The notes under the pieces: model-generated
What the model was told of the DNA's origin: nothing
What the model saw: the letters and a program-made list of their open reading frames with translations, nothing else
The model's database searches: none
Program-made: the position numbers and the translations under genes
NCBI GenBank assembly: GCA_919901855.1
Contig: CAKKQC010000057.1
Coordinates: forward strand, 1 to 37,645
From: a bacterium
GTDB taxonomy: Bacteria; Oederibacteriota; CAKKQC01
Direction of reading: 5' to 3'
DNA: 37,645 bases
Part shown: piece by piece, positions 12,301 through 31,288 of the stretch
How the letters are laid out: the number at the start of each line of letters is the position of its first letter
How positions within the stretch are numbered: position 1 is the stretch's first letter

Positions 12301-12767
12301 GGGCGGGGCCGCCCCGCCCGCGCGAACGTCCCCGACCGGCCGCCGGACTTGGCTTCGAGCCGCACGGCCTCAATCGTCATCCCGCGGTCCAGGGACTTGA
12401 CCATGTCGTACACGCAGAGCAGGCCCGCGGTCACGGCTGCCAGCGCCTCAATCTCGACGCCCGTGCGCGCCTCGGCCCGGACGCGGGCCCGCACCGTAAC
12501 CGCGCGCGCCCCGGGGACGATGTCCACCTCGACGGAGTCCAGGGGGACCGGATGGCACAGGGGCAGGGTCTCGCTGACGCGTTTCGCTCCCATAATAGAT
12601 GCAACCCGCGCGACGGCGAGAACGTTCCCTTTGGGAACCCGGCCGCTTCGGATCGCCCGGGCCGCCGCGGGACTCATCGTGATCCTTCCGGACGCCTCCG
12701 CCACGCGCACCGTGACGGGCTTCCCCGATACGTCGATCATTCGCACCCGCGCCGAGCTCGTCGTCAT
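12297..12767 (-). CDS. moaC: Cyclic pyranopterin monophosphate synthase MoaC
   Basis: Predicted 156 aa; partner of MoaA in making cyclic pyranopterin monophosphate from 3',8-cyclo-GTP. The conserved MIDVSGKPVTVRVAEA, PLCHPVPLDSVEVD (C71-H72), GVEIEAL and YDMVKSLD segments are all visible, together with the C-terminal KSGG motif. The ATG at 12767 overlaps fdhD by 4 bp. No moaD, moaE or moeB is present in the window, so the sulfur-carrying steps must be encoded elsewhere. Confidence 0.95.
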   Translation of the reverse strand: MTTSSARVRMIDVSGKPVTVRVAEASGRITMSPAAARAIRSGRVPKGNVLAVARVASIMGAKRVSETLPLCHPVPLDSVEVDIVPGARAVTVRARVRAEARTGVEIEALAAVTAGLLCVYDMVKSLDRGMTIEAVRLEAKSGGRSGTFARAGRPRP

Positions 12768-13561: not shown

Positions 13562-14229
13562 CCGCGTTTCCCTTCCGCCGCGTCGTGGAGCCGGGCCGCC
13601 ACCCGTTCGGCCAGCACGATGATGTCCTCGATGGGGAGCATGGAAAGCACGTCATCAGGATAGAGGAACGCGGCGTCCGGCGGAAACTCGTCGTCCGCCG
13701 CGAACCAGCCGACGGCGACGCGCAGCCGCGGGAATACGCGGAAGGAGAACCCCTCGTCGCCGACGGCGACGCGTTCCCCGCCCAGCGCGAGGCCCGCCCG
13801 GACGAACCCCTCCCGGTCCTTCCCCGCGGTCGAAACGATTCGGTCCAGCACCCGCTTGCGGAACACATCCCCGTAGACGCGGCCCTCGGGCAGGTCGCGG
13901 AACCCGACCCAGCGGGAGGATTCCACCGGCCCGGGACGCGCTAGCAGGTAGTGGAGGGCGATGATTCGCCATTCGATCCGGATTTCGGGTCCGTCAACGG
14001 CGCGGGTGACCGTGCGGTCCGCGGGATCGATCCGGAAGACCTCGCCCAGGACGGGCAGGTCGATGCATCCGGATTCCGAAGCTAAGGCCCCCAGCGCCGG
14101 AAGGTCCTCCCGGGCGCGCGCCACCAGGTCGTCGAAGGCCCGGTTGAGGGCGGTGGCGTATCCCGCGCTGCGCGCGGATGGCTCCAACCCCCCCATAGCA
14201 GAGTGCCCCGGGGGGACGCCCCGGGGCAC
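13558..14229 (-). CDS. DUF3786-type protein of unknown function
   Basis: Predicted 223 aa from a GTG at 14229 preceded by GGGAG at a 5-nt spacing. An ATG at 14196 (212 aa) is an alternative, and the residues between the two starts are encoded by a strong GC hairpin, so the shorter form may be the real one. The segments ALNRAFDDLVARA, LHYLLARPGPV, WVGFRDLPEGRVYGDVFRKRV and AVGWFAADDEFPPDAAFLYPDDVLSMLPIEDI resemble DUF3786 proteins, a family I associate with anaerobes that use corrinoid or CODH/acetyl-CoA pathways. No membrane segments, cofactor motif or catalytic residues are evident. It sits between acsE and fdhD and overlaps fdhD by 4 bp, so it probably works in corrinoid or formate metabolism. 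Its function is unknown. Confidence 0.75.
   Translation of the reverse strand: MPRGVPPGHSAMGGLEPSARSAGYATALNRAFDDLVARAREDLPALGALASESGCIDLPVLGEVFRIDPADRTVTRAVDGPEIRIEWRIIALHYLLARPGPVESSRWVGFRDLPEGRVYGDVFRKRVLDRIVSTAGKDREGFVRAGLALGGERVAVGDEGFSFRVFPRLRVAVGWFAADDEFPPDAAFLYPDDVLSMLPIEDIIVLAERVAARLHDAAEGKRG
14203..14229 (-). repeat. Perfect 11-bp GC hairpin between acsE and the DUF3786 gene
   Basis: GTGCCCCGGGG (14203-14213) pairs perfectly with CCCCGGGGCAC (14219-14229) around the 5-nt loop GGACG. It lies in the short acsE-DUF3786 gap and starts exactly at the upstream candidate GTG. It lacks a following T-run on the minus strand, so it looks like an intercistronic stability, attenuation or translation-control element rather than a full terminator. 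Confidence 0.6.
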
Positions 14230-14253
14230 GATATCTCCCGAACTCCTTAGAGG

Positions 14254-15060
14254 TCAGGGCTCGCCGGGTTTGGCTCCCATCTTGTACGCGTCGATGAACG
14301 AGTCGCAGTAGATCGTGCGCTGGAGCAGGAGCTCCGCGGCCACGAGCGCGTTCATGAGGTCCAGGTCCAGCGGATCGGCGATCAGGGCGTCCATGCCCGC
14401 CGACTGGGCCAGCGACATCATGGTCCGGTTGATGAGCTTGCGCTCGGTGCAGCCCTGCGAGACGTTCGACAGCCCGAGCACGAGGTGCGGCGGCGGGTCG
14501 CTGATCAGCTTGAGCGCGGCCAGCGCCGAGAGCACGGCCTTCGGGGTCGCGGGAGACACGTTCACGGGAATGATGATCGGGTCGATGAAGAGGTGGTTCA
14601 TCGGCAGCCCGGCCTCCTGGGCCTTGGCCGCGATGGTGGCACCCAGCTCGATCCGCTTCTCGGCGTCGGCGGGCACGCCCTTCTGGTCGATCGTGAGCCC
14701 GATGATGGACGCCTTGCAGTCCACGGCCAGCTTCAGGTACTTGTCGAGCTCGGCCTCGTCCGCCTTGCACGAGTTGATGATCGCGTGGCCCGGCACCTTC
14801 GGCACGATCGCGCTCATGACTTCCCACTTCGCCGTGTCGATCGCCAGCGGCGCGTCGGTCACCTCGCGGACGGCCTCGACGAGCCACATCATGGCGTCGA
14901 GCGGCTTGTCGCTCGCGGGCCCCACGTTGATGTCGAGCGCCTGCGCCCCGGCCTTGAGCTGGGCGAGCGCGACCTCCTGGACCACCTGCTTGTTCTTCTC
15001 GCCGATGGCGGCGCGCATGTTCTTGAACATCCCGTTGATACGTTCACCGATCAGGTACAT
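14254..15060 (-). CDS. acsE: 5-methyltetrahydrofolate:corrinoid/iron-sulfur protein methyltransferase
   Basis: Predicted 268 aa, close to the ~262 aa of Moorella MeTr. It moves the methyl group from methyl-THF to the cobalt of the AcsCD corrinoid protein. A pterin-binding TIM barrel is evident: IGERING at the N-terminus, GAQALDINVGP (~38-48), PLAIDT, INSCKA, GLTIDQKGVP, LFIDPIIIPV and VLGLSNVSQG. The ATG at 15060 has an AAGGA site upstream. It follows acsD by 22 bp. It is distinguished from MetH or MtgA-type methyltransferases by the stand-alone barrel and the acs neighbours. Confidence 0.93.
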   Translation of the reverse strand: MYLIGERINGMFKNMRAAIGEKNKQVVQEVALAQLKAGAQALDINVGPASDKPLDAMMWLVEAVREVTDAPLAIDTAKWEVMSAIVPKVPGHAIINSCKADEAELDKYLKLAVDCKASIIGLTIDQKGVPADAEKRIELGATIAAKAQEAGLPMNHLFIDPIIIPVNVSPATPKAVLSALAALKLISDPPPHLVLGLSNVSQGCTERKLINRTMMSLAQSAGMDALIADPLDLDLMNALVAAELLLQRTIYCDSFIDAYKMGAKPGEP

Positions 15061-15082
15061 AGCCGGTCCTTTCCTTTGTTGA

Positions 15083-16063
15083 TCAGGCGGCCAGCGCCTT
15101 CGCGCCCGCCACCAGTTTGTCGATCGTGTCCCGCACGAGCTTCACGGCCCCCGGATGCCGCATGACCAGGATGTCCCCCCCCGCCTGCAGGTAGTTCGTC
15201 GCGGTCAGCGTTTCCCACATAAGTGCGCGCTCCGCCAGCGGCCCGTACCCCGGCATGGAGTCGTCGCCGGCATTGGCTTCCTTCACCCGCCAGGACTCGA
15301 GCCCGACGTCGCAGAGCACGGGCTGCATCAGGAGCTGGTCTCCGCCGATCCCCGCCAGCCGTCCCCGTTCCATGATGCTGAGCACGTAGTCGAAGCCGTA
15401 GCCCATGGCCGCGGTCGTGGGGAACATGACGATGTTCTCCAGCGGGAACCCGGCGTCGTGCGCGAGGATGTTGACCTGCTTGGCGATGTTGATGTCCAGC
15501 GGCGACTCGGCGAGCAGCTTGTGACCGTCGGCCAGGCAGGACGCGACCAGCGTGCGGTAGTTCTTGTCCGTCGCGGTCCCGATCAGGCAGTTCTCGCCCC
15601 GCGCGGCCTCGCTGACCCGCGGCAGGACGATGTTGTCCTTCTCGGCTATGCCGCATCCCCAGATGATCAGCGGCAGGTCCACGGCCGCGAGCACGGACTT
15701 CACGAGGGCGACCGACTCGTCGGCCCCCCGGTCCCCGAGATCCGGGTGCGTGCCATCGAGCCTGAGGCAGATGAGGTCGGCGCCGAACTCGGCCGCCTTC
15801 TTCGCCCACGTCACCGTGTCCTTGAGCGCGTCGCCGTAGAGCGACTGCAGCCCCGCGGGCCAGGTCTCGCCGCGCGAATCCCATACCTCGAGCGCGATCG
15901 CGGGCCGGTTCCCGATGTCGCCCTCGTAGGACATCCAGGGGATGCACTTCGCCCCCCCGATGGTCACGACCTTGCCGCGCGTGCCCTTCTCGGCCGCAGT
16001 CGCCCCGATCGTGACCGTATTGATCGCCGCCGCCCAACGTTGTGCTGTCTCAGATGCTTTCAT
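15083..16063 (-). CDS. acsD: Corrinoid/iron-sulfur protein small subunit (CODH/ACS delta)
   Basis: Predicted 326 aa. AcsD forms the TIM-barrel half that holds cobamide with AcsC; the heterodimer carries the methyl group from AcsE to AcsB. Typical segments are VVTIGGAKCIPWMSYEGDIGN (~32-52), ICLRLDGTHPDLGD, PLIIWGCGIAEKDNIVLPRVSEA, NCLIGTATDKNYRTL, VMFPTTAAMGYGFDYVLSIMERGRLAG and GPLAERALMWE. A GAGG site precedes the ATG, and a strong -10 box lies about 45-50 bp upstream. It begins the acsD-acsE-fdhD-moco-fdhA transcript and, unusually, is about 11.6 kb from acsC. Confidence 0.93.
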   Translation of the reverse strand: MKASETAQRWAAAINTVTIGATAAEKGTRGKVVTIGGAKCIPWMSYEGDIGNRPAIALEVWDSRGETWPAGLQSLYGDALKDTVTWAKKAAEFGADLICLRLDGTHPDLGDRGADESVALVKSVLAAVDLPLIIWGCGIAEKDNIVLPRVSEAARGENCLIGTATDKNYRTLVASCLADGHKLLAESPLDINIAKQVNILAHDAGFPLENIVMFPTTAAMGYGFDYVLSIMERGRLAGIGGDQLLMQPVLCDVGLESWRVKEANAGDDSMPGYGPLAERALMWETLTATNYLQAGGDILVMRHPGAVKLVRDTIDKLVAGAKALAA

Positions 16064-16449: not shown

Positions 16450-16836
16450 TCAGGCTCCCGAAGTCCCTGATGCAAGATCAACCTCCATCCGTTCCACCCC
16501 GCGCCCGCCCGTGAGAGCGCCCACCGTGCCGCAGCCGGGGCACGCCGCGCTCGGCAGGGGGTCATGTCCATCCACGCCGTCCCCGAACTCCGTGATGCGC
16601 CCGCACCCCTCGCACCAAAGCATCGCCGGCACGACCTCGAGGTCCAGCCTCGCCCCGTCGAGGATCGTGCCGCCACTGAGGGCCGAGAACGCCAGGACGA
16701 GCGCCTCGCGCGAGTGGAACTCCAGCGCGCCGATCCTGACCCGGACGGCGGCGACCGGACCCCGGACGACGCCCCGTTCCGCCAGCCCCCGGAGCACGCC
16801 GTCCACGAGGTCCTGGACCATGGCGAATTCGTGCAC
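16450..16836 (-). CDS. hypA: Hydrogenase nickel-insertion protein HypA
   Basis: Predicted 128 aa. The GTG at 16836 is chosen because it gives the MHEFAM N-terminus, whose His2 and Glu3 belong to the nickel site of HypA. Longer in-frame starts would bury this motif. The zinc domain is intact as two CxxC pairs (CEGCG and CPGCG). HypA delivers nickel to the [NiFe] large subunit. It starts 5 bp after the stop of the maturation protease gene. Confidence 0.93.
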   Translation of the reverse strand: MHEFAMVQDLVDGVLRGLAERGVVRGPVAAVRVRIGALEFHSREALVLAFSALSGGTILDGARLDLEVVPAMLWCEGCGRITEFGDGVDGHDPLPSAACPGCGTVGALTGGRGVERMEVDLASGTSGA

Positions 16837-16841
16837 GGCCG

Positions 16842-17333
16842 TTACCCCAGCGCCTCGCGCACGACCAACCGGCAGGCCCGGCCCACCGCGTCCGTCATCT
16901 GCACGGACAGGCCGGGCGCCACCTCGTCGGGGACGGCGGTAACCTGCGCGGCCACCACCGTGACCCGGACCCCGCACCGCTCGGAAAGCTCCCGCAAGAG
17001 GTCGACCGAGGGAGCCTGGTGAAGCGCAAAGTCGTCCCGCTTGACCGCCGGCAACTCCTCCACCCCGAGCGTAAAGACCTCTCCCGGCCCGCGGCTGGGC
17101 AAGAGCACCGCGTCCACGATCACGAGCTTCTCAGGCCGGGGTCCGCCCAGCGCGAGGTCGAAGAGGATCTCCCTCGCCCCGGTCCCGGCGTCCAGGACAG
17201 CGACGTCGCCCGGCAGGTCCCACTCCGACACCAGCCGCCCGGCCACTTCCGGACCGAACCCGTCGTCGCCGAACAGCACGTTGCCGCACCCGAGCACGAG
17301 CACCCGCTTGCCGAACCACGGGTGCCCCCCCAC
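16842..17333 (-). CDS. Hydrogenase maturation endopeptidase (HyaD/HybD/FrhD family)
   Basis: Predicted 163 aa. These proteases remove the C-terminal peptide of [NiFe] large subunits after nickel insertion. The family signature GCGNVLFGDDGFGPEVAGRL near the N-terminus, the DAGTGAREIL segment, the metal-ligand-type VIVDAVL and the His of DDFALHQAPS are present. The GTG at 17333 follows the mvhA stop by one base. Its neighbour MvhA keeps a 24-residue tail after the DPCxxCxxH motif, which fits as substrate. Confidence 0.9.
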   Translation of the reverse strand: MGGHPWFGKRVLVLGCGNVLFGDDGFGPEVAGRLVSEWDLPGDVAVLDAGTGAREILFDLALGGPRPEKLVIVDAVLLPSRGPGEVFTLGVEELPAVKRDDFALHQAPSVDLLRELSERCGVRVTVVAAQVTAVPDEVAPGLSVQMTDAVGRACRLVVREALG

Positions 17334-17334: not shown

Positions 17335-18774
17335 TCAGTTCTCCAGCACTCCCACGATCTCTCCCGACGGGTTCCTGATCTCGATCCGGACCGCGACCTC
17401 CCCGAGCCGGTGCGTCGCGCACGAGAAACAGGGGTCGTGCGCCCGGACGGTCATCTCGATCAGATTCAGGACCCGCTCGTCGTAGTTGCCCTTCTTGATC
17501 AGGCTCTTCGCCGCGTGCTTGACCGACATGTTGATCGGCGCGTTGTTGTGCGTCGTCCCGACGATGATGTTCACGTTCTTGACCATCCCGTCGGCGTCGG
17601 TCTCGTAGTCGTGGATCAGCGTGCCGCGCGGCGCCTCCACCGAGCCGACGCCCCGCGCCGCCCGCGGCTTGACCGCGAGCCGGACGTCCGGCGAGGTGAT
17701 CGCGGGGTCCGCCAGCAGCTCGGTCAGGCGCTCGGCCGCGTAGACCGTCTCGATCAGGCGGGCCCAGTGGAAGAGCAGGGTGTTGTGCGCCGGCCGGCCG
17801 AACCGGCTGCGGAATTCCTCCAGCTCGGCCTGGGCCTTCGGGGTCCCGATCCGGTCGCAGACGTTGATCCGCGCAAGCGCGTTCGCGCGGTAGATCCCCG
17901 ACGGGTGCTCGAGGTCCATGGAAAACGGGCCCCACTTCTTGGCGTAGGGGAACTTGAGATACGACCACGGCTCCACGTGTTCGCCGATATGGTCGAGGTA
18001 TTCCGCCGGCGGGAAGTCCGCGAAGGCGCCGCCCGGCTCCATCAACCTCAGGTTCCCGTCGTACAGGTTCAGCACCCCTCCCGCCTGGACGGTCCCGATC
18101 GCCCCCGTGGGGAAGACCGCCACGGTCTTCACCTCGTCGAGGTAGGCGGGGAAGATCTGCGTCTTCGCGAACTCCATGGCGAAGAGGGAGAAATCCAGGC
18201 ACTCCTGCGCCATCCCCTTGAGCTCCGCCAGCTCCGCGGACGTGATCGGCTTGCTCCATCCTCCGGGCACCGCCACGTCGGGGTGGATCGCCTTTCCGCC
18301 CATCAGTTGCGTCATCATCTGCGCGAGGTACCGCACGCGCACGACGCGCGTCGCCACCTCCGGGACCTTGCCGATCACCCCGACCACGTTCCGCACGGCG
18401 AAGTCCGCCCCGGGTCCCATCACGAAATCCGGTCCCGAGAGGATGAAGAAGTGCAGGACGTGGCTGTGCAGGAAGTGGGCCATGTAGGCCGCCTCCCGGA
18501 TCTTCGCGGCCGCTTCGGGGATGGTCACGCCGAACACGGCGTCGCACGCCTTCGCCGAAGCCAGGTGGTGCGCCCACGGGCACACGCCGCAGATACGGCA
18601 GACTATGCGGGGCAGCTCCTCGACCGGCCGGCCCACGCAGAACCGCTCGAAGCCCCGCAACTCCACGACGTTGACGCGCGCGTCCGCGACATCGCCCTGA
18701 TCGTCGAGTTGGATCGTGATCTTGGCGTGTCCCTCTATCCTGGTGACCGGCTGAATGACGATGGTCTTGCCCAT
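17335..18774 (-). CDS. mvhA: [NiFe] hydrogenase large subunit, MvhA-like (group 3)
   Basis: Predicted 479 aa. It carries the Ni-Fe active site that oxidises or produces H2. Both metal-binding pairs are present: RICGVC (C62, C65) and DPCFSCATH (C449, C452, H455). The chain runs exactly 24 residues past His455, the size of the peptide removed by the maturation protease in related HoxH-type subunits. RIEGHAKI and HFFILSGPDFVMG segments are typical. An AAGGAGG site precedes the ATG. It follows mvhG by 10 bp. With MvhG and MvhD it should form an MvhADG module that donates electrons to HdrA. Confidence 0.92.
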   Translation of the reverse strand: MGKTIVIQPVTRIEGHAKITIQLDDQGDVADARVNVVELRGFERFCVGRPVEELPRIVCRICGVCPWAHHLASAKACDAVFGVTIPEAAAKIREAAYMAHFLHSHVLHFFILSGPDFVMGPGADFAVRNVVGVIGKVPEVATRVVRVRYLAQMMTQLMGGKAIHPDVAVPGGWSKPITSAELAELKGMAQECLDFSLFAMEFAKTQIFPAYLDEVKTVAVFPTGAIGTVQAGGVLNLYDGNLRLMEPGGAFADFPPAEYLDHIGEHVEPWSYLKFPYAKKWGPFSMDLEHPSGIYRANALARINVCDRIGTPKAQAELEEFRSRFGRPAHNTLLFHWARLIETVYAAERLTELLADPAITSPDVRLAVKPRAARGVGSVEAPRGTLIHDYETDADGMVKNVNIIVGTTHNNAPINMSVKHAAKSLIKKGNYDERVLNLIEMTVRAHDPCFSCATHRLGEVAVRIEIRNPSGEIVGVLEN

Positions 18775-18784
18775 GACAGCCTCC

Positions 18785-19717
18785 TTAACGCCGCGCCAGG
18801 GGGGGTCGCAGCCGCCCCTGGGCCCCGATGAACCGGTTGAATGTTGGTGCGCGGTCGGGGATCTCCTTCGGATCGAGCCCGATCGAGGACAGCGCGCTCA
18901 TCATGTCCACCATGGGGTTCGCCCCCGCCCGGATCGGCCCGAAGCACCCGCGGCAGGCCATCCTGGCCTTGATGCAGCGCGGGGTGTGCTGGGAGCCGCC
19001 GCACCCGCTGCGGGTCGCCGGACCCAGGCAAAGGAACCCCTGCTCCATGAGGCACCGCGCGTCCTCCCAGCGCCCGGAGGCCGGCAAGGCGGGAGGCTCC
19101 AGCGGCCGCTTCAGCTTCGTCACGGCCTTCTTCTCGCGCTTGAGCGGGCACTCGTCGCACACGCTGCGCTCGGGCAGGCTGAACGGCTTGCCCTCCAGGA
19201 GGGCGGTGAGCGCACCGGCGACCATTTCCGGCGTCGTGGGACAGCCGGGCAGTCCGACGTCCACCTTGACGACTTCCGAGACCGCCAGCACGCGGTCGGT
19301 GAGCGGAGGCAGGCCGTCCGCCGGCGTAGGCGCCGCGTCCGTGCTCGGCGATCCGCGGTAGGCCGCCCCGGTGATCTCGTCCACCGTGCTCAGGTTCCCG
19401 AGGGCGGGAATGCCGCCGAAGTTGGCGCACGATCCCACCGCCACCAGGACCTTGCACTGCCGGCGCATCTCCTCCGCCACGCGCTTGTTCTCCTCATTCC
19501 GGATCGAACCCGTGATGAGCCCCACCTCCGCCTTGGGGATCTCCAGAGCCCCGTCACGCTCGCCACGCTGGCCGAAGAACTTGTGGTCCATCAGCACGGG
19601 CATGTGGACGAACTCGATTTTCGGCAACAAACCGAGGAGCGGCTCCCCGATGTCCAGCACCGTCACCTCGCACCCTCCGCAAGTCGCCAGCCACTCCTCC
19701 GCGATTCTGACCGCCAT
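18785..19717 (-). CDS. mvhG: [NiFe] hydrogenase small subunit, MvhG-like
   Basis: Predicted 310 aa. The proximal cluster motif is CGGCE (C13, C16), with VGSCANFGGIPAL and VGLPGCPTTPE as the later ligands; further Cys-rich segments (CDECPLKRE, CLGPATRSGCGG, CIKARMACRGCFGP) provide the medial and distal [4Fe-4S] clusters. There is no Tat signal peptide, so the enzyme is cytoplasmic like other group 3 hydrogenases. The start has a strong AAAGGAGGG site. It lies 71 bp after mvhD; that gap shows nothing else recognisable. Confidence 0.92.
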   Translation of the reverse strand: MAVRIAEEWLATCGGCEVTVLDIGEPLLGLLPKIEFVHMPVLMDHKFFGQRGERDGALEIPKAEVGLITGSIRNEENKRVAEEMRRQCKVLVAVGSCANFGGIPALGNLSTVDEITGAAYRGSPSTDAAPTPADGLPPLTDRVLAVSEVVKVDVGLPGCPTTPEMVAGALTALLEGKPFSLPERSVCDECPLKREKKAVTKLKRPLEPPALPASGRWEDARCLMEQGFLCLGPATRSGCGGSQHTPRCIKARMACRGCFGPIRAGANPMVDMMSALSSIGLDPKEIPDRAPTFNRFIGAQGRLRPPLARR

Positions 19718-19788
19718 CTTCGCCCTCCTTTGCCGTCCCGTCCGAAATGCCTCGTGTCGCCGTCCGCCTCTTGATCAATACAAACCCC

Positions 19789-20457
19789 TCAGGTGACGCT
19801 CCCGCCGGGCGCGGGTCCCCCGGCCGCCCGGCGCGTGAACAACCGGATCCCGTCCCCCTCCGCCAGTTCCTGGACCTCGAAGCCCGCCTGCTCGTACTCC
19901 GTTCTGGCCCGGGCGGCCTCGGCCGCGTCGGCGTATGTCCGGGCGTCCCGGAAGAGCCGCCGGCCCGCGAAATCGCGCCCCGGCCCCGGCGCGGCCTCCC
20001 GGCCCGCCGCGTCCCCCCCGCCCGCTCCGCCGGGCCCCGCCTGGCCCCGGTACGGGCTCGGCCCCAGCGCCCGCACGGCCTCCGTCATCTCCCGCATGAC
20101 CTCCGCGAACCGGGCCCCCTCGGCGGCCGACACCCAGGCCAGCCGGAACCGTTCCGGCTCCAGCCCGAAATCCCCCAGCATGAGATCGATCGCCTCCTTG
20201 CGCTTCTCGGCCCTCAGGTTCCCTTCCAGGTAGTGGCAGTCGCCGGGATGGCAGCCGCAGATCACCACCCCGTCGGCACCGTGGGTCAGCGCGTCCATCA
20301 CGAGGTTCGGGTGCACCATCCCCGAACACATGACCCGGATGATCCGCACGTTGGGAGGATAGGAGAGGCGGGAGGTCCCCGCGAGATCGGCCCCCGTGTA
20401 CGAGCACCAGTTGCAGCAGAAGGCGATGAGCATCGGCTCGAACGGTGCCTCAGCCAC
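19789..20457 (-). CDS. mvhD: MvhD-like [2Fe-2S] linker subunit with C-terminal extension
   Basis: Predicted 222 aa. MvhD passes electrons from the hydrogenase to HdrA. The family core fills the first ~140 residues, with Cys in AFCCNWCSYTGAD (C14, C15, C18), VMCSGMVHP (C44) and ICGCHPGDCHY (C67, C69, C73). Typical MvhD proteins are about 140 aa, and the extra ~80 residues are unusual: a Gly/Pro-rich linker (~132-162) and a small domain (RDARTYADAAEAARARTEYEQAGFEVQELAEG). The GTG at 20457 overlaps the hdrA stop by 8 bp. This order fits electron flow from MvhA through MvhG and MvhD to HdrA. Confidence 0.88.
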   Translation of the reverse strand: MAEAPFEPMLIAFCCNWCSYTGADLAGTSRLSYPPNVRIIRVMCSGMVHPNLVMDALTHGADGVVICGCHPGDCHYLEGNLRAEKRKEAIDLMLGDFGLEPERFRLAWVSAAEGARFAEVMREMTEAVRALGPSPYRGQAGPGGAGGGDAAGREAAPGPGRDFAGRRLFRDARTYADAAEAARARTEYEQAGFEVQELAEGDGIRLFTRRAAGGPAPGGSVT

Positions 20458-23400
20458 GGGCGCCTCCCGGCAGCATCGCCTCGACCATCGCCGAAAGCTG
20501 CTCCAGCCGGAACCCCCGGACCGAGATCCCCTTCTTGGGGCACGTCGCCTGGCAGGTCCCGCACCCCTTGCAGAGGGTCTCGTTGACCTCGATCGTCTTC
20601 TTGACCGCCCCGTCGCTCGCGTACTCCAGGAGCGTCAAGGCCTTGTACGGGCACACCTCGACGCAGTACGCGCACCCGTCGCAATTCGCCTCGATCACCT
20701 CGGACACGCACGCCTCCAGGGACAACGAATCCGTCGCGAGCAGTCCCGCGACCCGGGCGGCCGCGGCGAGCGCCTGCGCCGAGGACTCGTCCACCGTCTT
20801 GGGCCCATGCGCCATCCCGCACAGGAATATCCCGTCCGCCGCGAAGTCCACCGGCCGCAGTTTCATGTGCGCCTCGAGGAAGAAACCGTTCACGTCCAGC
20901 GGCACCTTGAGCAGGCGCGCGAGCTCGGCCGCCCCGGGCCGCGGCACGATCGCCGGCGCGAGCACCACCCAGCCCGCTTCCAGCGCCACCTGGCGGCGGA
21001 CGACCGGCTCGAAGAACCGCACCAGCAGCGGGTCGTTCCGCGAACCTTCCAGCACCTCCGGCTTGCGCCCGGGATCGTAACGCGCGAAGACCACGCCCCG
21101 GCGCCGCGCCTCCGTGTAGGCGGCCTCCCGCAGCCCGTACGCCCGGACGTCCCGGTACAGGATGGTCACCGCCGTCCCCGGGCTGGCGCTCTTGATCCGC
21201 AGGGCGTTCTTGATCGCCTGACCGCAGCAGATCCGGCTGCAATACGGGTGGCGGGCGTCGCGGGACCCCACGCACTGGATCATGACGACGCTCGCGGGCG
21301 GAGAGGCGCCGCCGGCGAGTCTCTGCTCCAGCTCGCGCTGGGTGAGGACGGAGGGATTCGCGCCGTACCGGTACTCGGCCGGCCGTTCCTCCTGCGCCCC
21401 GGTCGCCACGATGATGGCGCCGTGCCGGATGCGCGCGGGCGAGCCGAAGGACACGAGCGTCGTCTCGAAGTTCCCGACGGAACCCGTGATGGCGCCGATC
21501 CGGGCGCCCGCGTACACCGTGACGCGGGGATGCCCCCGCACCTCCGCCGCCAGGCGGTCGAAGTGGGTGCGCGGGTCCTCGTGCGCGTCGATCAGGAACC
21601 GGAGCCAGGACAGGTTTCCTCCCAGGGCGGGTTCACGCTCCACCAGGTGCGTCTCGAACCCCTGGTTGGCCAGGCTCAGCGCCGCGGTCATCCCGCTCAG
21701 GCCGCCGCCGATCACGAGCACCTCCCGGCTGATCGGAACGGACCGCCGCACCAGCGGCTCGAGGAGTCCGGCCTTGGCCACGGCGGCCCGGACGAGATCC
21801 TCCGCCTTCGCCGTCGCGCGGGGGGGATCCCCCGCGTGCACCCACGCGTCCTGGTCGCGGATGTTCGCCATCTCGAACAGGTAGGGATTCAGCCCGCCCT
21901 CCCGGATGGTGCTCCGGAACAGCGGCTCGTGCGTGCGCGGCGTGCACGCGGCGACCACGACCCGGTTGAGCCCGTGTTCCCGGATCGCGTCCCGGATCTT
22001 CTGCTGGGAATCGGTCGAACAGGTGTACAGGAGGTGTTCGGCGTGCTCGACCCCGGGCAGGGCCCGGGCGTGATCCGCCACGGCCGCGACGTCCACGACG
22101 CCCGCGATGTTGGAGCCGCAGTGGCAGACGAAGACGCCGATCCGCGGAGCCTGGCCCCGGACGTCGGTCTCCGGCGGCGCCGCGACCTTCGCGGTCAGGG
22201 TATGGCGGGCGTCCGCCAGCAACTCGAGGCTGCGCGAAACCGCGGCGCCGGCCTGCATCACGGTTTCCGGTATGTCCCGGGGCGCCGTGAACGCGCCCGC
22301 GACGAAGACGCCGTCCCGCGGCGTGTCCACCGGGGCGGTGTCCCGCCCCGGAGAAAAGCCGTTCCGGTCCAGCAGGAGCCCGAAGGTCGCCGCCAGCGAG
22401 CGGGCCGCGCGGGGCGGCGCGAGGCCCGCGGCCAGCACGACGAGATCGTACTCGCCGGTCACCTTCCGGCCGTCCTCGGTGAGATACGCGACGCGCAGGT
22501 CGTGGCTCCCCGGCGCCTCCGCCACCCCGGCCGGCCGGCAGCGGACGTACCGGACGCCTGACGCCTCCGCCCGGGCCGCGTACTCCTCGAAGCCCTTACC
22601 GTAGGCGCGCAGATCCATGGCGAAGATGTCGCACGCCAGGTCCCCGCCCACGTGCTGCTTGGCCAGGAGGGCCTCCTTCGTCGCGGCCATGCAGCAGATC
22701 GACGAACAGTAGTCCCGCTGGTTGTCGCGCGAGCCCACGCATTGGATGAACGCGATGCGGCCCGGCGCCCTCCCGTCGGACGGCCGGGCGAGATGCCCCC
22801 GGGTCGGGCCGGAGGCGGACAGGAGCCGCTCGAGCTCGAGCGACGAGACCACGTTCGGCAACGCACCGTACCCGTATTCGGGCTTGAGCCGCGGATCGAA
22901 CAGGTCGAACCCCGGCGCCACGACCACCGCCCCGACGGCCAGATCCTCCCGGCTCTCCTTCTGGCCGAAGTCGACGGCCAGCGCCTTGCAGTGCTTCTGA
23001 CAGATGACACACGAGCCGGACTTGAAGTGCAGGCAGTGCGCCGCGTCGATCACCGCGGCGTTCGGAATCGCCTGCGGGAACGGGATGTGGATCGCCGGCC
23101 GGAAGGACAGCCCCCCGTTGAATTCGTCCGGGATCGGCTGCACCCGTTTGGGATCGGGGGATGGCTTGACCTTGCCCATCGCGCAGACCTGCATGCACGC
23201 CCCGCAGCCAGTGCACCGGGCCAGATCGACGTACCGGGGCCGCAGCTTGACCGTCGCGCGGAAGTCCCCCGGCTCGCCCTCGAGCCGCTCGACGTCGGCC
23301 AGCGTGTGCAGCTCGATGTCCGGGTTCCGGCTCACCTCCACCAGCCGGGGCGCCAGCGTGCACATGGCGCAGTCGTTGGTGGGGAAGGTCTTGTCGAGCT

Positions 23401-23545
23401 GCGCCATCCCCCCCCCGATCGCGGGGCCGTGCTCCACCAGGTGCACCTTGATCCCGGCCGCCGCGAGGTCCAGCGCGGCCTGCATCCCGCCGATCCCTCC
23501 CCCGACCACCAGGACCGCGCCGACCGGCATCCCGTCCGGACTCAT
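20450..23545 (-). CDS. hdrA: Double-length HdrA-like flavin/iron-sulfur protein
   Basis: Predicted 1031 aa, against ~650 for methanogen HdrA. Two HdrA-like units lie in tandem. The first has a FAD Rossmann loop GGGIGG (15-20), CAMC (59-62), CTGCGACMQVC (111-121), a Cys-rich segment (171-186) and CVGSRDNQRDYCSSICC (269-285). The second starts with the HdrA N-terminal VFVCHCGSNI (~471-480), has GGGLSGM (613-619) and CVGSRDARHPYCSRICC (758-774), and ends in two [4Fe-4S] motifs, CDGCAYCVEVC (955-965) and CKGCGTCQATC (992-1002). The layout also resembles QmoA and QmoB joined in one chain. It overlaps the QmoC-like gene upstream (4 bp) and mvhD downstream (8 bp). HdrA proteins are FAD enzymes that split or relay electrons. 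No HdrB is present, so the acceptor is not a classical heterodisulfide. Confidence 0.9.
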   Translation of the reverse strand: MSPDGMPVGAVLVVGGGIGGMQAALDLAAAGIKVHLVEHGPAIGGGMAQLDKTFPTNDCAMCTLAPRLVEVSRNPDIELHTLADVERLEGEPGDFRATVKLRPRYVDLARCTGCGACMQVCAMGKVKPSPDPKRVQPIPDEFNGGLSFRPAIHIPFPQAIPNAAVIDAAHCLHFKSGSCVICQKHCKALAVDFGQKESREDLAVGAVVVAPGFDLFDPRLKPEYGYGALPNVVSSLELERLLSASGPTRGHLARPSDGRAPGRIAFIQCVGSRDNQRDYCSSICCMAATKEALLAKQHVGGDLACDIFAMDLRAYGKGFEEYAARAEASGVRYVRCRPAGVAEAPGSHDLRVAYLTEDGRKVTGEYDLVVLAAGLAPPRAARSLAATFGLLLDRNGFSPGRDTAPVDTPRDGVFVAGAFTAPRDIPETVMQAGAAVSRSLELLADARHTLTAKVAAPPETDVRGQAPRIGVFVCHCGSNIAGVVDVAAVADHARALPGVEHAEHLLYTCSTDSQQKIRDAIREHGLNRVVVAACTPRTHEPLFRSTIREGGLNPYLFEMANIRDQDAWVHAGDPPRATAKAEDLVRAAVAKAGLLEPLVRRSVPISREVLVIGGGLSGMTAALSLANQGFETHLVEREPALGGNLSWLRFLIDAHEDPRTHFDRLAAEVRGHPRVTVYAGARIGAITGSVGNFETTLVSFGSPARIRHGAIIVATGAQEERPAEYRYGANPSVLTQRELEQRLAGGASPPASVVMIQCVGSRDARHPYCSRICCGQAIKNALRIKSASPGTAVTILYRDVRAYGLREAAYTEARRRGVVFARYDPGRKPEVLEGSRNDPLLVRFFEPVVRRQVALEAGWVVLAPAIVPRPGAAELARLLKVPLDVNGFFLEAHMKLRPVDFAADGIFLCGMAHGPKTVDESSAQALAAAARVAGLLATDSLSLEACVSEVIEANCDGCAYCVEVCPYKALTLLEYASDGAVKKTIEVNETLCKGCGTCQATCPKKGISVRGFRLEQLSAMVEAMLPGGARG

Positions 23546-24699
23546 CCGGGGACCGCGGCCTGCCGCCGCCGCGCCTCCTCCCGGACCTCGTACAACATGA
23601 TGGCAACCGGACGATACGCCTCGTGCGCGAGCTTGCCGAACGGGACCTCGACGGCGAGCATGGCCACCGACACCATGAGATGAACCGCGAACGTGGCACA
23701 GGTGGTGAGGGGCCAGTCCAGGTACCGGGCCACGTGCGTGACCAGCCCCGTCAGCGCGGTCAGGAGGATCAGGACCGGAAAGAGCCGGTCGCCGAACTCC
23801 GAGAACCGGTGAGCTTCCTCCCGCTTACGCCGCCGGCCCAGCAGGATATCGATGCTCACGACGGTCAGCACGGCCGTCGCGTAGTACCCGAGCAGGCGCT
23901 GCGGGTGGGTCCAGGGCAGGATCGCATCCGTCTGAAACCACGGAAGGAAGAACACGACGAGCACGAACATGACCACGAATCCGGACACCAGCAGGAGGTG
24001 CTTGATCCACCGGCCCAGATGGGCCTTGCCGCAGTCCTTGATCCACGACTGGGTGAAGAAATGCCAGAGGAAGACGCCGAGCGACCGCCCCCACGCCCGC
24101 ATGCTGATCCCTTCCCCCCGCACGTCGCGGATCGCGAAGAAGACCAGCCGCGCGACGTTGGACGCCACGAGCGCCGCGAGGGCCGCCACCAGCCAGGTGT
24201 CGTACCGCTGGATGAGACCCACCGAGTGGGACCGGCCGAGAACGAAGAACGTGCTGATGTCCACATCCCCCTTCAGAATGCGCCAGTGAAACCACAGGCC
24301 CAGCGCCGCCACGACGGAGGCGACGATGCCGAGGGCGGCGAGCCGCCAGGCGCGGGAGCGGTAGAAGAGGGCCGTCAGGCCCGTCCAGTCGTACTGGGCA
24401 CTCAGGTACTTGCGCAGGGTCATGAGCGATTCCCCCGGCTCGGCCTGGCGGGGGCACCGTTCGGAGCAGTCGCCGCAGTAGTGGCACAGCCAGGGATCGA
24501 GACTCCCACGGACGGATTCGCGCAGGCCGAGTTGGACGAGCCGGATCGCGCGGCGCGGCAGGAGCAGGGCGTCGCGGGCGAGCTCGCAGGCCAGCGCGCA
24601 CGTACCACACGTGAAGCACGCATCGGTGTCGAACCGGCCGAACGCCCGGATCTCGGACAACAGTTTCGGATCGGCGACCTCGCCGATCGTCCCGTTCAT
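23542..24699 (-). CDS. QmoC/HdrE-like membrane protein: HdrC-type ferredoxin domain plus cytochrome b-like domain
   Basis: Predicted 385 aa, the size of QmoC. The N-terminus has two [4Fe-4S] motifs, CFTCGTCALAC (C28, C31, C34, C38) and CHYCGDCSERC (C72, C75, C78, C82), as in HdrC. About six hydrophobic segments follow (approximately 118-138, 167-190, 231-253, 268-288, 306-325, 333-352), with His residues near or in several (H234, H265, H322, H340) that could bind haem b. In Qmo and Dsr-type complexes such proteins exchange electrons with menaquinone. Here it is the first gene of the hydrogenase module and overlaps hdrA by 4 bp, so it probably tethers HdrA-MvhADG to the membrane. The direction of electron flow is not fixed by the sequence. 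Confidence 0.85.
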   Translation of the reverse strand: MNGTIGEVADPKLLSEIRAFGRFDTDACFTCGTCALACELARDALLLPRRAIRLVQLGLRESVRGSLDPWLCHYCGDCSERCPRQAEPGESLMTLRKYLSAQYDWTGLTALFYRSRAWRLAALGIVASVVAALGLWFHWRILKGDVDISTFFVLGRSHSVGLIQRYDTWLVAALAALVASNVARLVFFAIRDVRGEGISMRAWGRSLGVFLWHFFTQSWIKDCGKAHLGRWIKHLLLVSGFVVMFVLVVFFLPWFQTDAILPWTHPQRLLGYYATAVLTVVSIDILLGRRRKREEAHRFSEFGDRLFPVLILLTALTGLVTHVARYLDWPLTTCATFAVHLMVSVAMLAVEVPFGKLAHEAYRPVAIMLYEVREEARRRQAAVPG

Positions 24700-24967: not shown

Positions 24968-25765
24968 TCAGCCGCTCACCCCGCACGCGGCCATGAGTTC
25001 TCCGGCTCCCTCGGGCAGTCCCCCCTCCAGAACGCTGTCGGTCTCCCCGGACCGGCCGGCCAGGTCCGCGGAGTACGGAATGCTGACCGACGCGTCGAAC
25101 AGGCCGGCGGGAACGACGCCGGCCGCCGCCGCGGGGACCCCGGCGGGGCCCACCTTGTTCCACACGAGGACGCGCTTCCCGACCTTCACCGGCAGGCTCC
25201 GCGCGAGCTCCGCGATCTTGACCGCCGTGCGCGCCCCCACCATCGTCGGCTCGGACAGCACGAGCATGCACGAGATGTCGTCCGTGTTCATGCGCGAGAG
25301 ATGCTCCATCCCCGCCTCGTTGTCGACGATCGTGACGGGGTAGTTCCCCCGGAGCTTCTCGAGCGCCTCCCGGATGAGGTTGTTGACGTAGCAGTAGCAG
25401 TCCGGCCCCTCCGGGCGGCCGATGGCGAGGAAGTCGAACCCGGTCGCCTCGACCAGGAGCTCGGCCATCTTGGCGTCCATGAGCCGCTCCTTCGGAATCC
25501 CGGACGTCCGGGATTTCTCGTCCATGACCTCCTCGCGGATGTCGCTCACGGCGGGACCGGGCTCCAGCCCGAGCAGCGGCGCGAGCGTGCTCGCGGGGTC
25601 GGCATCCACGGCCAGCACCGGCCGGATGCCCCGGGCGACCAGCATCCGCACGAGCGTGGCGGCGACCGTCGTCTTGCCCGTCCCGCCCTTGCCCGTTACC
25701 GCGATGAGCCGGCCTGCATGCCGGTGCCCTTCCCCGTGATCGTGCTCGTGCGCGTGGTCGTGCAT
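24968..25765 (-). CDS. cooC: CODH/ACS nickel-insertion ATPase CooC/AcsF with His-rich N-terminus
   Basis: Predicted 265 aa. CooC-type MinD-like ATPases use ATP to load nickel into CODH or ACS. The P-loop GKGGTGKTT (residues ~25-33) is of the deviant Walker A type, and the metal-binding CxC motif is C123-Y-C125, followed by VNN. The N-terminus MHDHAHEHDHGEGHRH holds seven His plus acidic residues and probably stores or captures nickel, as in some HypB and CooJ proteins. The Shine-Dalgarno GGGAGG lies inside the last codons of acsV, and the ATG is 3 bp after its stop. It is the last gene of the CODH/ACS operon. A second cooC lies at 33492. Confidence 0.92.
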   Translation of the reverse strand: MHDHAHEHDHGEGHRHAGRLIAVTGKGGTGKTTVAATLVRMLVARGIRPVLAVDADPASTLAPLLGLEPGPAVSDIREEVMDEKSRTSGIPKERLMDAKMAELLVEATGFDFLAIGRPEGPDCYCYVNNLIREALEKLRGNYPVTIVDNEAGMEHLSRMNTDDISCMLVLSEPTMVGARTAVKIAELARSLPVKVGKRVLVWNKVGPAGVPAAAAGVVPAGLFDASVSIPYSADLAGRSGETDSVLEGGLPEGAGELMAACGVSG

Positions 25766-25768
25766 GGT

Positions 25769-27712
25769 CTACCTCCCTCCGCCGGACTTGCGGCCGGCCG
25801 ACGGAAACTCCTCGAGATTCGTGTGGGGCAGGAAACAGGCGGAAGTGAACTCCTCCATGAACGACGGGATCGTGCTCAGCTCGAGGTACGTCATCCCGTC
25901 CGCGAACCTGCGCGTATCCTCGTAGCAGGTCCGGTCCACGGCGCACAGCTCGGCGCCGGCCAGCGACGTGTTGCCCGCGAACCGGAGCTTCCCCCGGTCG
26001 ATGTCGGGCAGGAGGCCGATCGCCACGGCCTTGTCCATGTCGAGGTGGGAACCGAAGGCGCCCGCGACCATGATCTCGCCCAGGTCCGCCGGGGCCATCC
26101 CCAGGGACTTGAGCATCATCTTGACGGCCGCGTAGACGGCGCCCTTGGCGCGCAGGAGGTTCTCGACGTCGGGCTGGGAGATGACGATGTCGTGCGTCGC
26201 GCCCCGTTCCCCCGCGGGCACGATCACGAACTCGGCCAGGCCGTCCGGACCCTGGCGCAGCCCCGCGCCCGCCTTGGCGGCGTTGAACCGGCCGGTCTTG
26301 TCGATGATCCCGAGGTCCAGGAGGACGGCGAGCAGGTCGATATAGGCCGTCCCGCACAGCCCCGCGGGCGGGGCATCGCCGATGACCGTGTAGTCGAACG
26401 CGTTCCCGTGCCGGCCCGTCACGTGGTCCACGGCCCCGCTCATCGCGCGCATGCCGTGCCGCGTCCCCGCGCCCTCGAACGCCGGACCGGCGGAGGCGCT
26501 GGCGCACATCATCCACTCGCGGTTCCCGATCACGATCTCGCCGTTCGTCCCGAGGTCCACGAGCATGCGCGGCGCCTCGGACTCCGCGAGCCCCGTCGCC
26601 AGCACGCCGGCGGTGATGTCCGCGCCCACGTACGCGCTCACGCACGGCAGGCTGTAAACCAGGCCGGCGGGCGCGATCGCGAGGCCCAGGTCCGAGGCGC
26701 GGACGGACGGCGGCTGGTAGACGCCGCCGATGTAGGGGTCGCGGCGGATCCAGGCGGGCTTGACCGCCAGCAGGAGGTGCGTCATCACCGTGTTGCCCGC
26801 CGCGACGGCGACGTCGATGCGGTCGGCGCCAACCCTGAGCCGGGTGGTGAGCTCCCCGATGAGCGCGTTGACGTCGTCCACGATGTGCTCCTGCAACTGC
26901 CGCAGCCCGCCCGGGTGGTTGTCGGTCCACAGGATCCGGTGGATCACGTCCGGCCCGTAGACGGCCTGCGAGTTGTACTTGGAGGCGCTCCCGAGCTTGG
27001 CGCCCGAGGCGAGGTCGAGGAGGCTCGCGACCACGCTCGTGGTGCCCACGTCCACGGCCAGCGCGAGGCCGCCTGCCGCGTCGCCGGGCACGACGTCCGT
27101 GATCTCGCGCCAGCCCGCGTGCCGGGCGAGCGTGACGGTCACCCGGTGGTTCCCCGCGCGGATGGCGTCCGGAATCCTGCGGATGACCTCGAGCCCGGCC
27201 TCGATCTGGCCGTCCCCGGCCGTCTTCGCGAGGGCCAGCTTCGTGCGCTCCAGGTCGGCCCGGTTGAACTCGAGCGAAGGCGGAGCCACGTCAAGCCCGA
27301 CCCGGGCCACGAGGGGGTCCAGCGCCGCGGGCTTCGAGCGCGTCGAGGCGTTCCGGACCCCGGCCCGGTCCGCGGGGTCGAAGGAGACCACCGTCCCGCG
27401 GACGCGGGCCTCGTCGGGGACCTCGATCGTGAGGGGCCCCACGACCCGGGCCTGGCAGGCCAGGACGTAGCCGGCCTTGATCTCGGCCGCGTCCAGGAAG
27501 GGGGACTCCCCCCCTTCGGCGGTCCCCTTCCGCACGATGGCGCGGCACTTGCCGCAGATGCCTTCGCCGCCGCAGAAGGTGTCGATGAAGACGCCCGCGG
27601 ACCGCGCGGCGTCGAGAATGGTGGTTCCGGCGGGGACCTCGGCTGCGAGCTCGTCCGGCAGGAACTCTACGCGGTGGGCTTCTTGCCTCCGGGGACCGCC
27701 TACGGTTTCCAC
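25769..27712 (-). CDS. acsV: Corrinoid protein reductive activator (RACo-like, AcsV)
   Basis: Predicted 647 aa, close to the ~630 aa of Carboxydothermus RACo. It uses ATP to return oxidised Co(II) in the AcsCD corrinoid protein to active Co(I). The N-terminal plant-type [2Fe-2S] ferredoxin motif is C47-x5-C53-x2-C56 with C86. The C-terminal ASKHA-type ATPase part is recognisable from LALAVDVGTTSVVASLLDL, AAGNTVMTHLLL, VDLGTNGEIVIG and IMVAGAFGSHLDMDKAVAIGLLP. The GTG at 27712 overlaps the acsC end by 13 bp; no closer start precedes the ferredoxin domain. Its position between acsC and cooC matches known acs clusters. Confidence 0.92.
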   Translation of the reverse strand: METVGGPRRQEAHRVEFLPDELAAEVPAGTTILDAARSAGVFIDTFCGGEGICGKCRAIVRKGTAEGGESPFLDAAEIKAGYVLACQARVVGPLTIEVPDEARVRGTVVSFDPADRAGVRNASTRSKPAALDPLVARVGLDVAPPSLEFNRADLERTKLALAKTAGDGQIEAGLEVIRRIPDAIRAGNHRVTVTLARHAGWREITDVVPGDAAGGLALAVDVGTTSVVASLLDLASGAKLGSASKYNSQAVYGPDVIHRILWTDNHPGGLRQLQEHIVDDVNALIGELTTRLRVGADRIDVAVAAGNTVMTHLLLAVKPAWIRRDPYIGGVYQPPSVRASDLGLAIAPAGLVYSLPCVSAYVGADITAGVLATGLAESEAPRMLVDLGTNGEIVIGNREWMMCASASAGPAFEGAGTRHGMRAMSGAVDHVTGRHGNAFDYTVIGDAPPAGLCGTAYIDLLAVLLDLGIIDKTGRFNAAKAGAGLRQGPDGLAEFVIVPAGERGATHDIVISQPDVENLLRAKGAVYAAVKMMLKSLGMAPADLGEIMVAGAFGSHLDMDKAVAIGLLPDIDRGKLRFAGNTSLAGAELCAVDRTCYEDTRRFADGMTYLELSTIPSFMEEFTSACFLPHTNLEEFPSAGRKSGGGR

Positions 27713-29037
27713 TGGTTCTTGAGGAACGGCACCAGCCCCGAGGCTTCCTTGGGACCCACGATGGCCTCCAGACCGGATTCGTCCTCAACCCCGCCCTTGA
27801 GCACCGCCACCAGGCCCGGCAGCACGATCTTCTTGTGCTTGACCTTCGTGTCCATGCCGCTGGACTTGTACGTCGCGGCGATGGTCTTGGCGTTCAGCTT
27901 GTCGGCGGCCCAGGCGGTGAGCACGCTCGTCCCGTCCGTGTTGACCGCGAGGATGTACGAGGGGATCCGGGACATTTGGACCTCGGCCTCGACCGAGCAG
28001 TAGGACAACGCGAAGTTCGTCGTCACCAGCACCGGGGAGTCCGGCCCCGCCTCGCCGATCACGTGCACGCCCGCCTCGACCTGCACCGGCACCTGCGGGT
28101 CCGTGTAGACGTCGCCGCGGGTCGTCAGGATGCCGAGGATGTGCTGGGAGGCCACGGTGTCCACGACGACGATGCCGGCGTACTTGAGGACGTACGAGCA
28201 CGCGTCGATGACCGCCTTGCCCTCGTTCTCGCCGAGCGACATCATCGCCACGGGGTAGCCGACCGGGCGGTGCTTCTTGAGGATGGCGCCCCGCCGCGTG
28301 GCCGTCAGGAACATGAGGCCCTCCGCGAGGTTGACGGTGCCGGGCGAGAGTATCAACTGCTTGAGCCCCTCCGCACGGGCTTTTTCCGCCAGCGCGTTGA
28401 CGTCCTCGAATCCCTTGGCCTCCAGCACCAGGGGCAGCCCGAGCTCCTTCGCAACCGCGATGGCCTCGGCGCCTTTCCCGTCCAGCGGCCACAGGAGCGG
28501 ATGCTTGTCCTTGAGGGCGGCGCCGGCCGCCTTCAGGGACTCTACGTGGCCGCTCATGAGGATGAGCGCCCGGTCCGCCACCTCGGAGGCCGTCTTCGCC
28601 GCTGCCGTAAACTTCGCCGCGTTGCCGTCCGCGTCGTGGACCGCGACGAGATTGACCTTGAGCACGCTCCGCATGCGCTCGAACTCGATGCCGGCGATGC
28701 GCTTGCACCGCTCGCGCAGCGCCGCGTCGTCGAGGGCGGAGCTCACGCGCACCGCCACCGCCGTGGGCCGGTGGAACTTCTCCTCGTGCCGGAAGAGGAC
28801 AGTCTCCTGCCCGATGCTCAACGCCTGTCCGCCCTCGCCGATCGTGACGAGCTGCTGGGGCGGCGCGCTCGCCTCGCTCAGCGCGGCCTTGCCCTCGGGC
28901 TTCAGGTGCTTGCAGTCGTCGAGCGACGCCTGGCCCGCGGCCACCTTCATGGCGAACGCCAGACAGGTCGGCACGCCGCAATCCTTGCAGTTCGTCTTCG
29001 GCAGGTGCTTGTAAATCGCGAGCCCGGACAACGCCAT
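27700..29037 (-). CDS. acsC: Corrinoid/iron-sulfur protein large subunit (CODH/ACS gamma)
   Basis: Predicted 445 aa, the usual size. AcsC carries the [4Fe-4S] cluster and caps the cobamide shared with AcsD. The cluster motif is NCKDCGVPTCLAFAMKV with ligands C17, C20, C25 and C42. The TIM barrel (about 95-310) and the C-terminal cobalamin-binding domain (SYILAVNTDGTSVLTAWAADKLNA, VLPGLVAVLKGGVEDESG) are complete. The ATG has an AAGGAGG site and follows acsB by 19 bp. Its usual partner acsD is not adjacent but starts at 16063. Confidence 0.94.
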   Translation of the reverse strand: MALSGLAIYKHLPKTNCKDCGVPTCLAFAMKVAAGQASLDDCKHLKPEGKAALSEASAPPQQLVTIGEGGQALSIGQETVLFRHEEKFHRPTAVAVRVSSALDDAALRERCKRIAGIEFERMRSVLKVNLVAVHDADGNAAKFTAAAKTASEVADRALILMSGHVESLKAAGAALKDKHPLLWPLDGKGAEAIAVAKELGLPLVLEAKGFEDVNALAEKARAEGLKQLILSPGTVNLAEGLMFLTATRRGAILKKHRPVGYPVAMMSLGENEGKAVIDACSYVLKYAGIVVVDTVASQHILGILTTRGDVYTDPQVPVQVEAGVHVIGEAGPDSPVLVTTNFALSYCSVEAEVQMSRIPSYILAVNTDGTSVLTAWAADKLNAKTIAATYKSSGMDTKVKHKKIVLPGLVAVLKGGVEDESGLEAIVGPKEASGLVPFLKNQWKP

Positions 29038-29056
29038 GTTCTTGTCCTCCTTGAAG

Positions 29057-31234: not shown

Positions 31235-31288
31235 GCCACCGCCTCCTTTATGCCTTGCAGCCGCGGAAGATTACCGATTCGTATGTCA

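Follow-up and report, generated by a model that had tools for sequence, protein, structure and literature searches.

The stretch of DNA analysed here, referred to as the window, is the entire 37,645-nucleotide contig CAKKQC010000057.1 (our contig C57) of a 4.68-Mb, 93.5% complete bacterial genome from the phylum Oederibacteriota (assembly GCA_919901855.1). Between acs genes, inside a Wood–Ljungdahl cluster, it carries a cassette for a [NiFe] hydrogenase of the methanogen Mvh type, a double-length HdrA (HdrAA) and a membrane subunit related to HdrF and QmoC. The parts are known, but the combination of MvhADG, HdrAA and a QmoC-like subunit is apparently unreported: no paper describing it was found in the literature, most subscription papers lying outside our coverage. 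With a probability of roughly 0.5, we think that electrons from H2 would pass through MvhAGD to HdrAA and there be split between ferredoxin and – via the membrane subunit – a quinone.

The hydrogenase cassette

A preliminary description of the window, made from its sequence, had proposed a hydrogenase wired to a duplicated HdrA and a QmoC-like subunit, and this gene set is real: five genes, from MvhA to the QmoC-like gene, occupy 24699–17335, all of them minus-strand, closely packed and with unbroken reading frames. They are transcribed in the order QmoC-like gene, double HdrA, MvhD, MvhG and MvhA, followed by a maturation protease and HypA:

23542..24699, minus strand: QmoC/HdrF-like membrane subunit, 385 aa (profile match, tree, predicted fold)
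20450..23545, minus strand: double HdrA (HdrAA), 1031 aa (HdrA2 model, alignment, ligands)
19789..20457, minus strand: MvhD, separate iron–sulfur subunit linking the hydrogenase to HdrA (profile match)
18785..19717, minus strand: MvhG, [NiFe] hydrogenase small subunit (profile match)
17335..18774, minus strand: MvhA, [NiFe] hydrogenase large subunit (profile match, nickel-site motifs)
16842..17333, minus strand: hydrogenase maturation protease, HyaD/FrhD type (profile match)
16450..16977, homology starting at ~16836, minus strand: HypA nickel chaperone (profile match)

Internal gaps are short (−4 for QmoC/HdrA, −8 for HdrA/MvhD, 10 for MvhG/MvhA and, the largest within the cassette, 71 bp for MvhD/MvhG) and the flanking spacers measure 268 bp on the upstream side and 386 bp on the downstream side, so the cassette appears to be a discrete unit placed among the acs genes.

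The hydrogenase subunits all match methanogen Vhu/Mvh families – MvhA the VhuA model (E 1.8e-133), MvhG its family model (E 2.4e-66) and MvhD, encoded as predicted by a gene of its own, the FlpD model (E 8.5e-54) – with mvhD and mvhG linked to mvhA. As both nickel-site motifs of MvhA are intact (L1, RICGVCPWAHH, for RxCGxCxxxH; L2, DPCFSCATH, for DPCxxCxxH), the enzyme is, as judged from its sequence, a [NiFe] hydrogenase of group 3c (Mvh) type with its own protease.

A double HdrA of the fused type

HdrA matches the HdrA2 model with 945 bits over three stretches. When aligned to the solved methanogen HdrA, residues 11–397 correspond to the flavin adenine dinucleotide (FAD) domain with its inserted ferredoxin, residues 465–643 to the N-domain and the beginning of another FAD domain, and residues 885–1025 to the C-terminal part with its ferredoxin; the protein is thus of double length, with two FAD modules, as had been proposed. 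Half A (~9–447) consists of a FAD domain, a Cys197-type ligand (C62, aligned to HdrA position 197) and an inserted 2×[4Fe–4S] ferredoxin (ligands C111,114,117,121 / C171,179,182,186), and has no N-domain. Half B (~465–1025) has an N-domain (C474,476,509,534), a FAD domain without insert and a C-terminal 2×[4Fe–4S] ferredoxin, and no Cys197. The N-domain and Cys197 are therefore complementary, half B having the former and half A the latter – a pattern described for the fused HdrA of anaerobic methanotrophic archaea (ANME) and for the Moorella MetFV–HdrABC–MvhD complex, whose HdrA is likewise double and holds two FAD (PMC9012536, PMC5861303). Because of this, the contrast previously drawn with Moorella was wrong; by sequence, the double HdrA is nothing unusual but belongs to the BamE/Moorella/ANME ‘HdrAA’ type.

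A scan of ~85,000 species genomes returned 548 relatives. Nearly all of the best 80 are full-length double HdrAs, many of them in clusters that look, from gene sizes and HylB/MvhD neighbours, to be of benzoyl-CoA-reductase (Bam) type – a label based on the BamB–I proteins. The highest identity among these 80 is 63%, to a protein of Elusimicrobia GWA2_69_24, which is alone at or above 50% besides an incomplete Chloroflexi sequence (L087, 50%). The host genome encodes only one HdrA.

The preliminary description had also taken the protein for QmoA and QmoB joined. A tree built from 96 FAD domains, however, places each half with four Elusimicrobia homologues (support 100 and 96 for halves A and B), inside a fused-HdrA (BamE-type) set in both cases (97 for half A, 99 for half B), and sets QmoA and QmoB apart in a group of their own. 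Constraining half A to join QmoA, or half B to join QmoB, is rejected (p-AU, approximately unbiased test, 2.9e-7 and 3.0e-4, respectively). As QmoB branches are long, Fe–S ligands were compared besides the trees: the inserted-ferredoxin Cys (8/8), both TrxR-domain sets of four Cys, and K317 are all retained in the window HdrAA and the fused HdrAs, whereas K317 and most of the second inserted-ferredoxin Cys set are missing from QmoA, and QmoB has none of the four TrxR-domain Cys. With clades excluding Qmo and with ligands kept that Qmo has lost, a fusion of QmoA and QmoB was rejected as the origin of the halves. HdrAA retains all Fe–S ligands required for bifurcation, C62 among them.

Three further arrangements were seen among the relatives. 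Many Elusimicrobia (L141–L151) and two genomes of the window’s phylum (L014, L015) encode an MvhD-like protein – apparently without the usual Cys pair – with a split HdrA pair (~440 + 605 aa) and a QmoC-like protein, with no hydrogenase and in their own clades in the HdrA and QmoC trees; such split QmoA/B-like and QmoC clusters (other Elusimicrobia, G019/G020) were rejected as members of the system, having no adjoining hydrogenase and forming their own clades. Loci L034 (8815–17124) and L078 (9518–17216), a second and independent Mvh–HdrAA association, combine MvhG/MvhA with an FrhB-like protein and no membrane subunit, and both the double HdrA and MvhD are broken by an in-frame TGA (likely selenocysteine); given these features and their distant branch, they too were set aside. 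In the one same-family genome (G001, L013 9700–14199), a double HdrA is fused to MvhD; an HdrCB (HdrD-like) protein is encoded next, and a ferredoxin-type gene precedes them.

The membrane subunit

The membrane subunit is recognised by the QmoC model (E 4.4e-49), though its 168 bits are under the curated cut-off of 300 bits. Its first ~105 residues are HdrC-type, with two [4Fe–4S] sites and eight invariant Cys (C28,31,34,38 / C72,75,78,82), and no CCG part is present in its 385 aa. The remainder is helical in an AlphaFold2 model (mean pLDDT, the predicted confidence score, 82.8); across 22 sequences His234 and His359 do not vary, and QmoC and HdrF also have His340. Structural re-alignment of Foldseek candidates gave mycobacterial EtfD a Z of 10.5 (219 residues) and NarI a Z of 7–8, both of them quinone-linked cytochromes b. 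The claim that HdrC-type clusters are fused to a membrane domain is upheld; with its conserved His residues and a suggestive NarI/EtfD-like fold, the subunit probably binds haem.

In the tree of membrane subunits, the window protein and four Elusimicrobia proteins form one group (98/98), joined next by the HdrF membrane domain of Desulfospira (99/99, one HdrF sequence), outside the QmoC of sulfate reducers. By sequence, then, the nearest relative of the subunit is the HdrF membrane domain, with QmoC second, and the idea that it had been drawn from sulfate-reducer Qmo is not supported. The HdrF in question, encoded in Desulfospira joergensenii (L113 7480–14883), is a 793-aa fusion of a QmoC-like membrane domain to HdrCB, accompanied by MvhD and an HdrA of HdrL type with a GltD/NfnB-like insert.

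HdrB, as first proposed, is missing: it was not found in the host genome (93.5% complete), in which the only two CCG proteins are one GlcF-like protein and one EtfD-like membrane Fe–S oxidoreductase. A mis-binned contig was rejected as the cause, the GC content (0.67–0.71) and tetranucleotides of the window being within the range of the genome – a weak test, as some foreign contigs also fit.

Distribution

A survey of 295 genomes from the phylum Elusimicrobia found four with a close membrane subunit (47–51% identity) beside a double HdrA (61–64%) and MvhD; MvhG, MvhA and the protease then follow in three, and the contig of the fourth ends near MvhD. The cassette was absent from the other genomes of the window’s own phylum (45 genomes surveyed), which leaves five genomes in two phyla. 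Since the gene order recurs in Elusimicrobia, the cassette is more than a chance arrangement; it is real, conserved and probably functional. Acetyl-CoA synthase (ACS) was found in none of the four Elusimicrobia genomes, and the cassette is therefore portable rather than bound to the Wood–Ljungdahl pathway.

Respiratory context

On another contig of the host genome (C6 295000–309000; L175 3115–6510, 6258–7361) lies a COX1–COX2–COX3–COX4–CtaB cluster, so an aa3-type oxidase is encoded beside the Wood–Ljungdahl cluster and a respiratory chain is implied. An aa3-type oxidase and a Wood–Ljungdahl cluster with carbon monoxide dehydrogenase (CODH)/ACS would, if the assembly is correct, make an unusual pairing in one metagenome-assembled genome. 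The check for Rnf that the preliminary description had suggested came out negative, RnfC being absent from the host genome under controls that gave matches; a search of the same genome for APS reductase (AprAB) gave no match, nor did its control genomes.

Proposed mechanism

Drawn by analogy with MvhAGD–HdrABC, the electron path would run as follows, if the subunits assemble into one complex that works in the direction of H2 oxidation. MvhAG would oxidise H2, and MvhD would hand the electrons to the C-terminal ferredoxin of half B, to be bifurcated by the HdrAA flavin. For the low-potential branch, the exit would be the ferredoxin inserted in half A, which would reduce soluble ferredoxin – here for CODH/ACS, in Elusimicrobia necessarily for something else. 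The high-potential branch would cross the HdrC-like clusters in the membrane subunit to reach haem b and, from there, the quinone pool. The net reaction would be 2 H2 + Fd(ox) + Q → Fd(red)2− + QH2 + 2 H+, and its sum is clearly exergonic, given potentials of −414 mV for H2, ~−450 mV for ferredoxin and ~−75 mV for menaquinone. The genes present, their ligands and family placement, the recurrence of the cassette and the modelled membrane fold are observations, from which the assembly of the complex, its haem binding, quinone use, bifurcation and direction are inferred.

This keeps much of an H2:quinone or quinone-dependent bifurcating complex, as originally suggested: an H2-linked HdrA, a haem/quinone-type subunit in place of HdrB and intact bifurcation ligands speak for it, as do the nickel-site motifs of MvhA, the recurrence of the cassette in two phyla, and, in the host genome, the aa3 oxidase and the lack of RnfC. 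Several observations nevertheless weigh against it. The fold Z values are middling, though above most helical background, and Foldseek alone recovered only HdrC and not the membrane domain, which leaves the EtfD/NarI-like fold only suggestive. In the host genome, MqnA/D were not found and neither MenD nor UbiE/MenG gave a match above cut-off, only divergent MenA-like proteins being seen. The suggested role in feeding the Wood–Ljungdahl pathway fares unevenly: the cassette does lie inside the acs cluster, which is a positional argument, but the lack of ACS in the four Elusimicrobia means that supplying this pathway with ferredoxin cannot be its general purpose.

As to quinones, no MenD or UbiE/MenG passed the cut-off in any of the five cassette genomes (G000, G048, G279, G260, G327), in which MenA-like prenyltransferases do occur; a divergent quinone pathway is possible in them.

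Alternative explanations

The same genes could encode an enzyme that passes electrons linearly from H2 to quinone – an uptake hydrogenase facing the cytoplasm, with HdrAA as a mere wire from MvhD to the membrane subunit, and no reduction of ferredoxin. A respiratory sink would be available in the aa3 oxidase, the membrane subunit resembles the quinone-reactive EtfD and NarI, and the Elusimicrobia that carry the cassette lack ACS, one of the main users of low-potential ferredoxin. We nonetheless regard such a wire as unlikely, as it would not need the inserted-ferredoxin ligands and Cys197-type ligand, all kept here and several lost in Qmo. That HdrAA has retained the low-potential exit, which is lost in Qmo, is the strongest sequence argument for bifurcation over simple relay.

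A poorer prospect is confurcation, in which reduced ferredoxin from an oxidative Wood–Ljungdahl pathway and quinol would together yield H2 as a sink for excess electrons. CODH/ACS and the NADH-type formate dehydrogenase of the cluster could indeed run oxidatively, RnfC, which might reoxidise ferredoxin, was not found, and group 3 hydrogenases are reversible; but when the electrons come from quinol, making H2 is strongly uphill except at very low H2, and the aa3 oxidase is a better sink.

It is also rather improbable that the complex bifurcates with a membrane partner other than a lipid quinone, such as a cytochrome c of the periplasm or some novel lipid carrier. Although no complete known quinone pathway was recognised in the host genome, and MenD and UbiE are below cut-off in all four Elusimicrobia as well, these genomes are incomplete, the aa3 oxidase, the EtfD-like protein and the MenA-like proteins imply some quinone, and the QmoC, NarI and EtfD relatives use quinones.

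Finally, a true Qmo derivative – QmoA and QmoB from sulfate reducers, fused and attached to a hydrogenase – would account for the Qmo-like order (FAD domain, then N-domain–FAD–ferredoxin, plus a QmoC-like subunit) and the match to the QmoC model, but is highly improbable in view of the rejected clades, the ligands lost in QmoA and QmoB, the grouping of the membrane subunit with HdrF and its sub-threshold QmoC score.

Genomic neighbourhood

The cassette is preceded by a Wood–Ljungdahl block and followed by a second block with further acs, molybdopterin and formate dehydrogenase genes:

24968..33226, minus strand: upstream Wood–Ljungdahl block
33226–31289, minus strand: CODH (upstream block)
31234–29057, minus strand: AcsB (upstream block)
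29037–27700, minus strand: AcsC (upstream block)
27712–25769, minus strand: RACo (upstream block)
25765–24968, minus strand: CooC-like ATPase, named by sequence reading (upstream block)
3849..16063, minus strand: downstream block
16063–15083, minus strand: AcsD-like (downstream block)
15060–14254, minus strand: AcsE-like (downstream block)
after AcsE-like, minus strand: DUF3786, FdhD, MoaC, MoeA, MobA and MoaA, molybdopterin genes among them (downstream block)
8709–6538, minus strand: NuoF/HylB-like (downstream block)
6536–3849, minus strand: NuoG–FdhA-type formate dehydrogenase (downstream block)

A LysR-type helix–turn–helix protein and a Fic/DOC protein are encoded at 2309–3843, immediately downstream of the formate dehydrogenase genes.

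Comparison with known systems

‘Candidatus Symbiobacter mobilis’, which has Mvh and HdrA but lacks HdrBC, shares with the window a bacterial group 3c hydrogenase and HdrA without HdrB, yet its HdrA has an NADH-binding domain and no membrane subunit was described (PMC4053972). QmoABC of sulfate reducers likewise joins HdrC-type clusters to a cytochrome-b-like membrane domain and has two HdrA-like FAD modules, but these modules form a separate clade, several of their Fe–S ligands are gone, and there is no hydrogenase. QmoABC works with AprAB. HdrF of Desulfobacterium autotrophicum has been described as an Hdr with membrane helices; in such sulfate reducers (HdrF with HdrL and MvhD; PMC2702500) the membrane domain is 39–40% identical and sister to the window family (99/99), whereas HdrF additionally carries HdrCB (CCG) and is paired with an HdrA of the NAD-binding HdrL type.

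The fused HdrAs (Moorella MetFV–HdrABC–MvhD, ANME HdrA3/4 and BamE-like) come close to HdrAA, with two FAD modules per chain, the complementary N-domain and Cys197, 45–50% identity over the full length and a separate MvhD, although the ANME halves are in reverse order and the partners are MetFV, HdrBC or BamB–I-like proteins rather than MvhAG and a membrane subunit. MvhADG–HdrABC of methanogens (H2:CoM-S-S-CoB, ferredoxin reductase; PDB 5odc, 8rvu) provides MvhA, MvhG, MvhD, the HdrA modules (FAD, inserted and C-terminal ferredoxins) and the HdrC-type cluster domain, here the N-terminal domain of the membrane subunit; the window differs in having HdrA doubled in one chain, no HdrB, and the HdrC domain fused to a membrane domain. 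By analogy, we put at even odds that this is a membrane-bound group 3c complex working like Mvh–Hdr, with a cytochrome-b/quinone site replacing the HdrB disulfide site.

More tentatively, the cassette may represent an undescribed class of bifurcating hydrogenase with a membrane quinone as high-potential acceptor, in a host that has both the Wood–Ljungdahl pathway and an aa3 oxidase but lacks RnfC, where one complex would split H2 between CO2 fixation (through ferredoxin) and respiration (through quinone). Respiring bacteria would then obtain low-potential ferredoxin from H2 simply, without Rnf, Ech or coenzyme M/coenzyme B chemistry. Where high-potential electrons exit the HdrA module in a bacterium without HdrB becomes a testable question, and the complex, if it works as proposed, would be the H2-driven counterpart of FixABCX, which passes electrons from NADH to ferredoxin and quinone.

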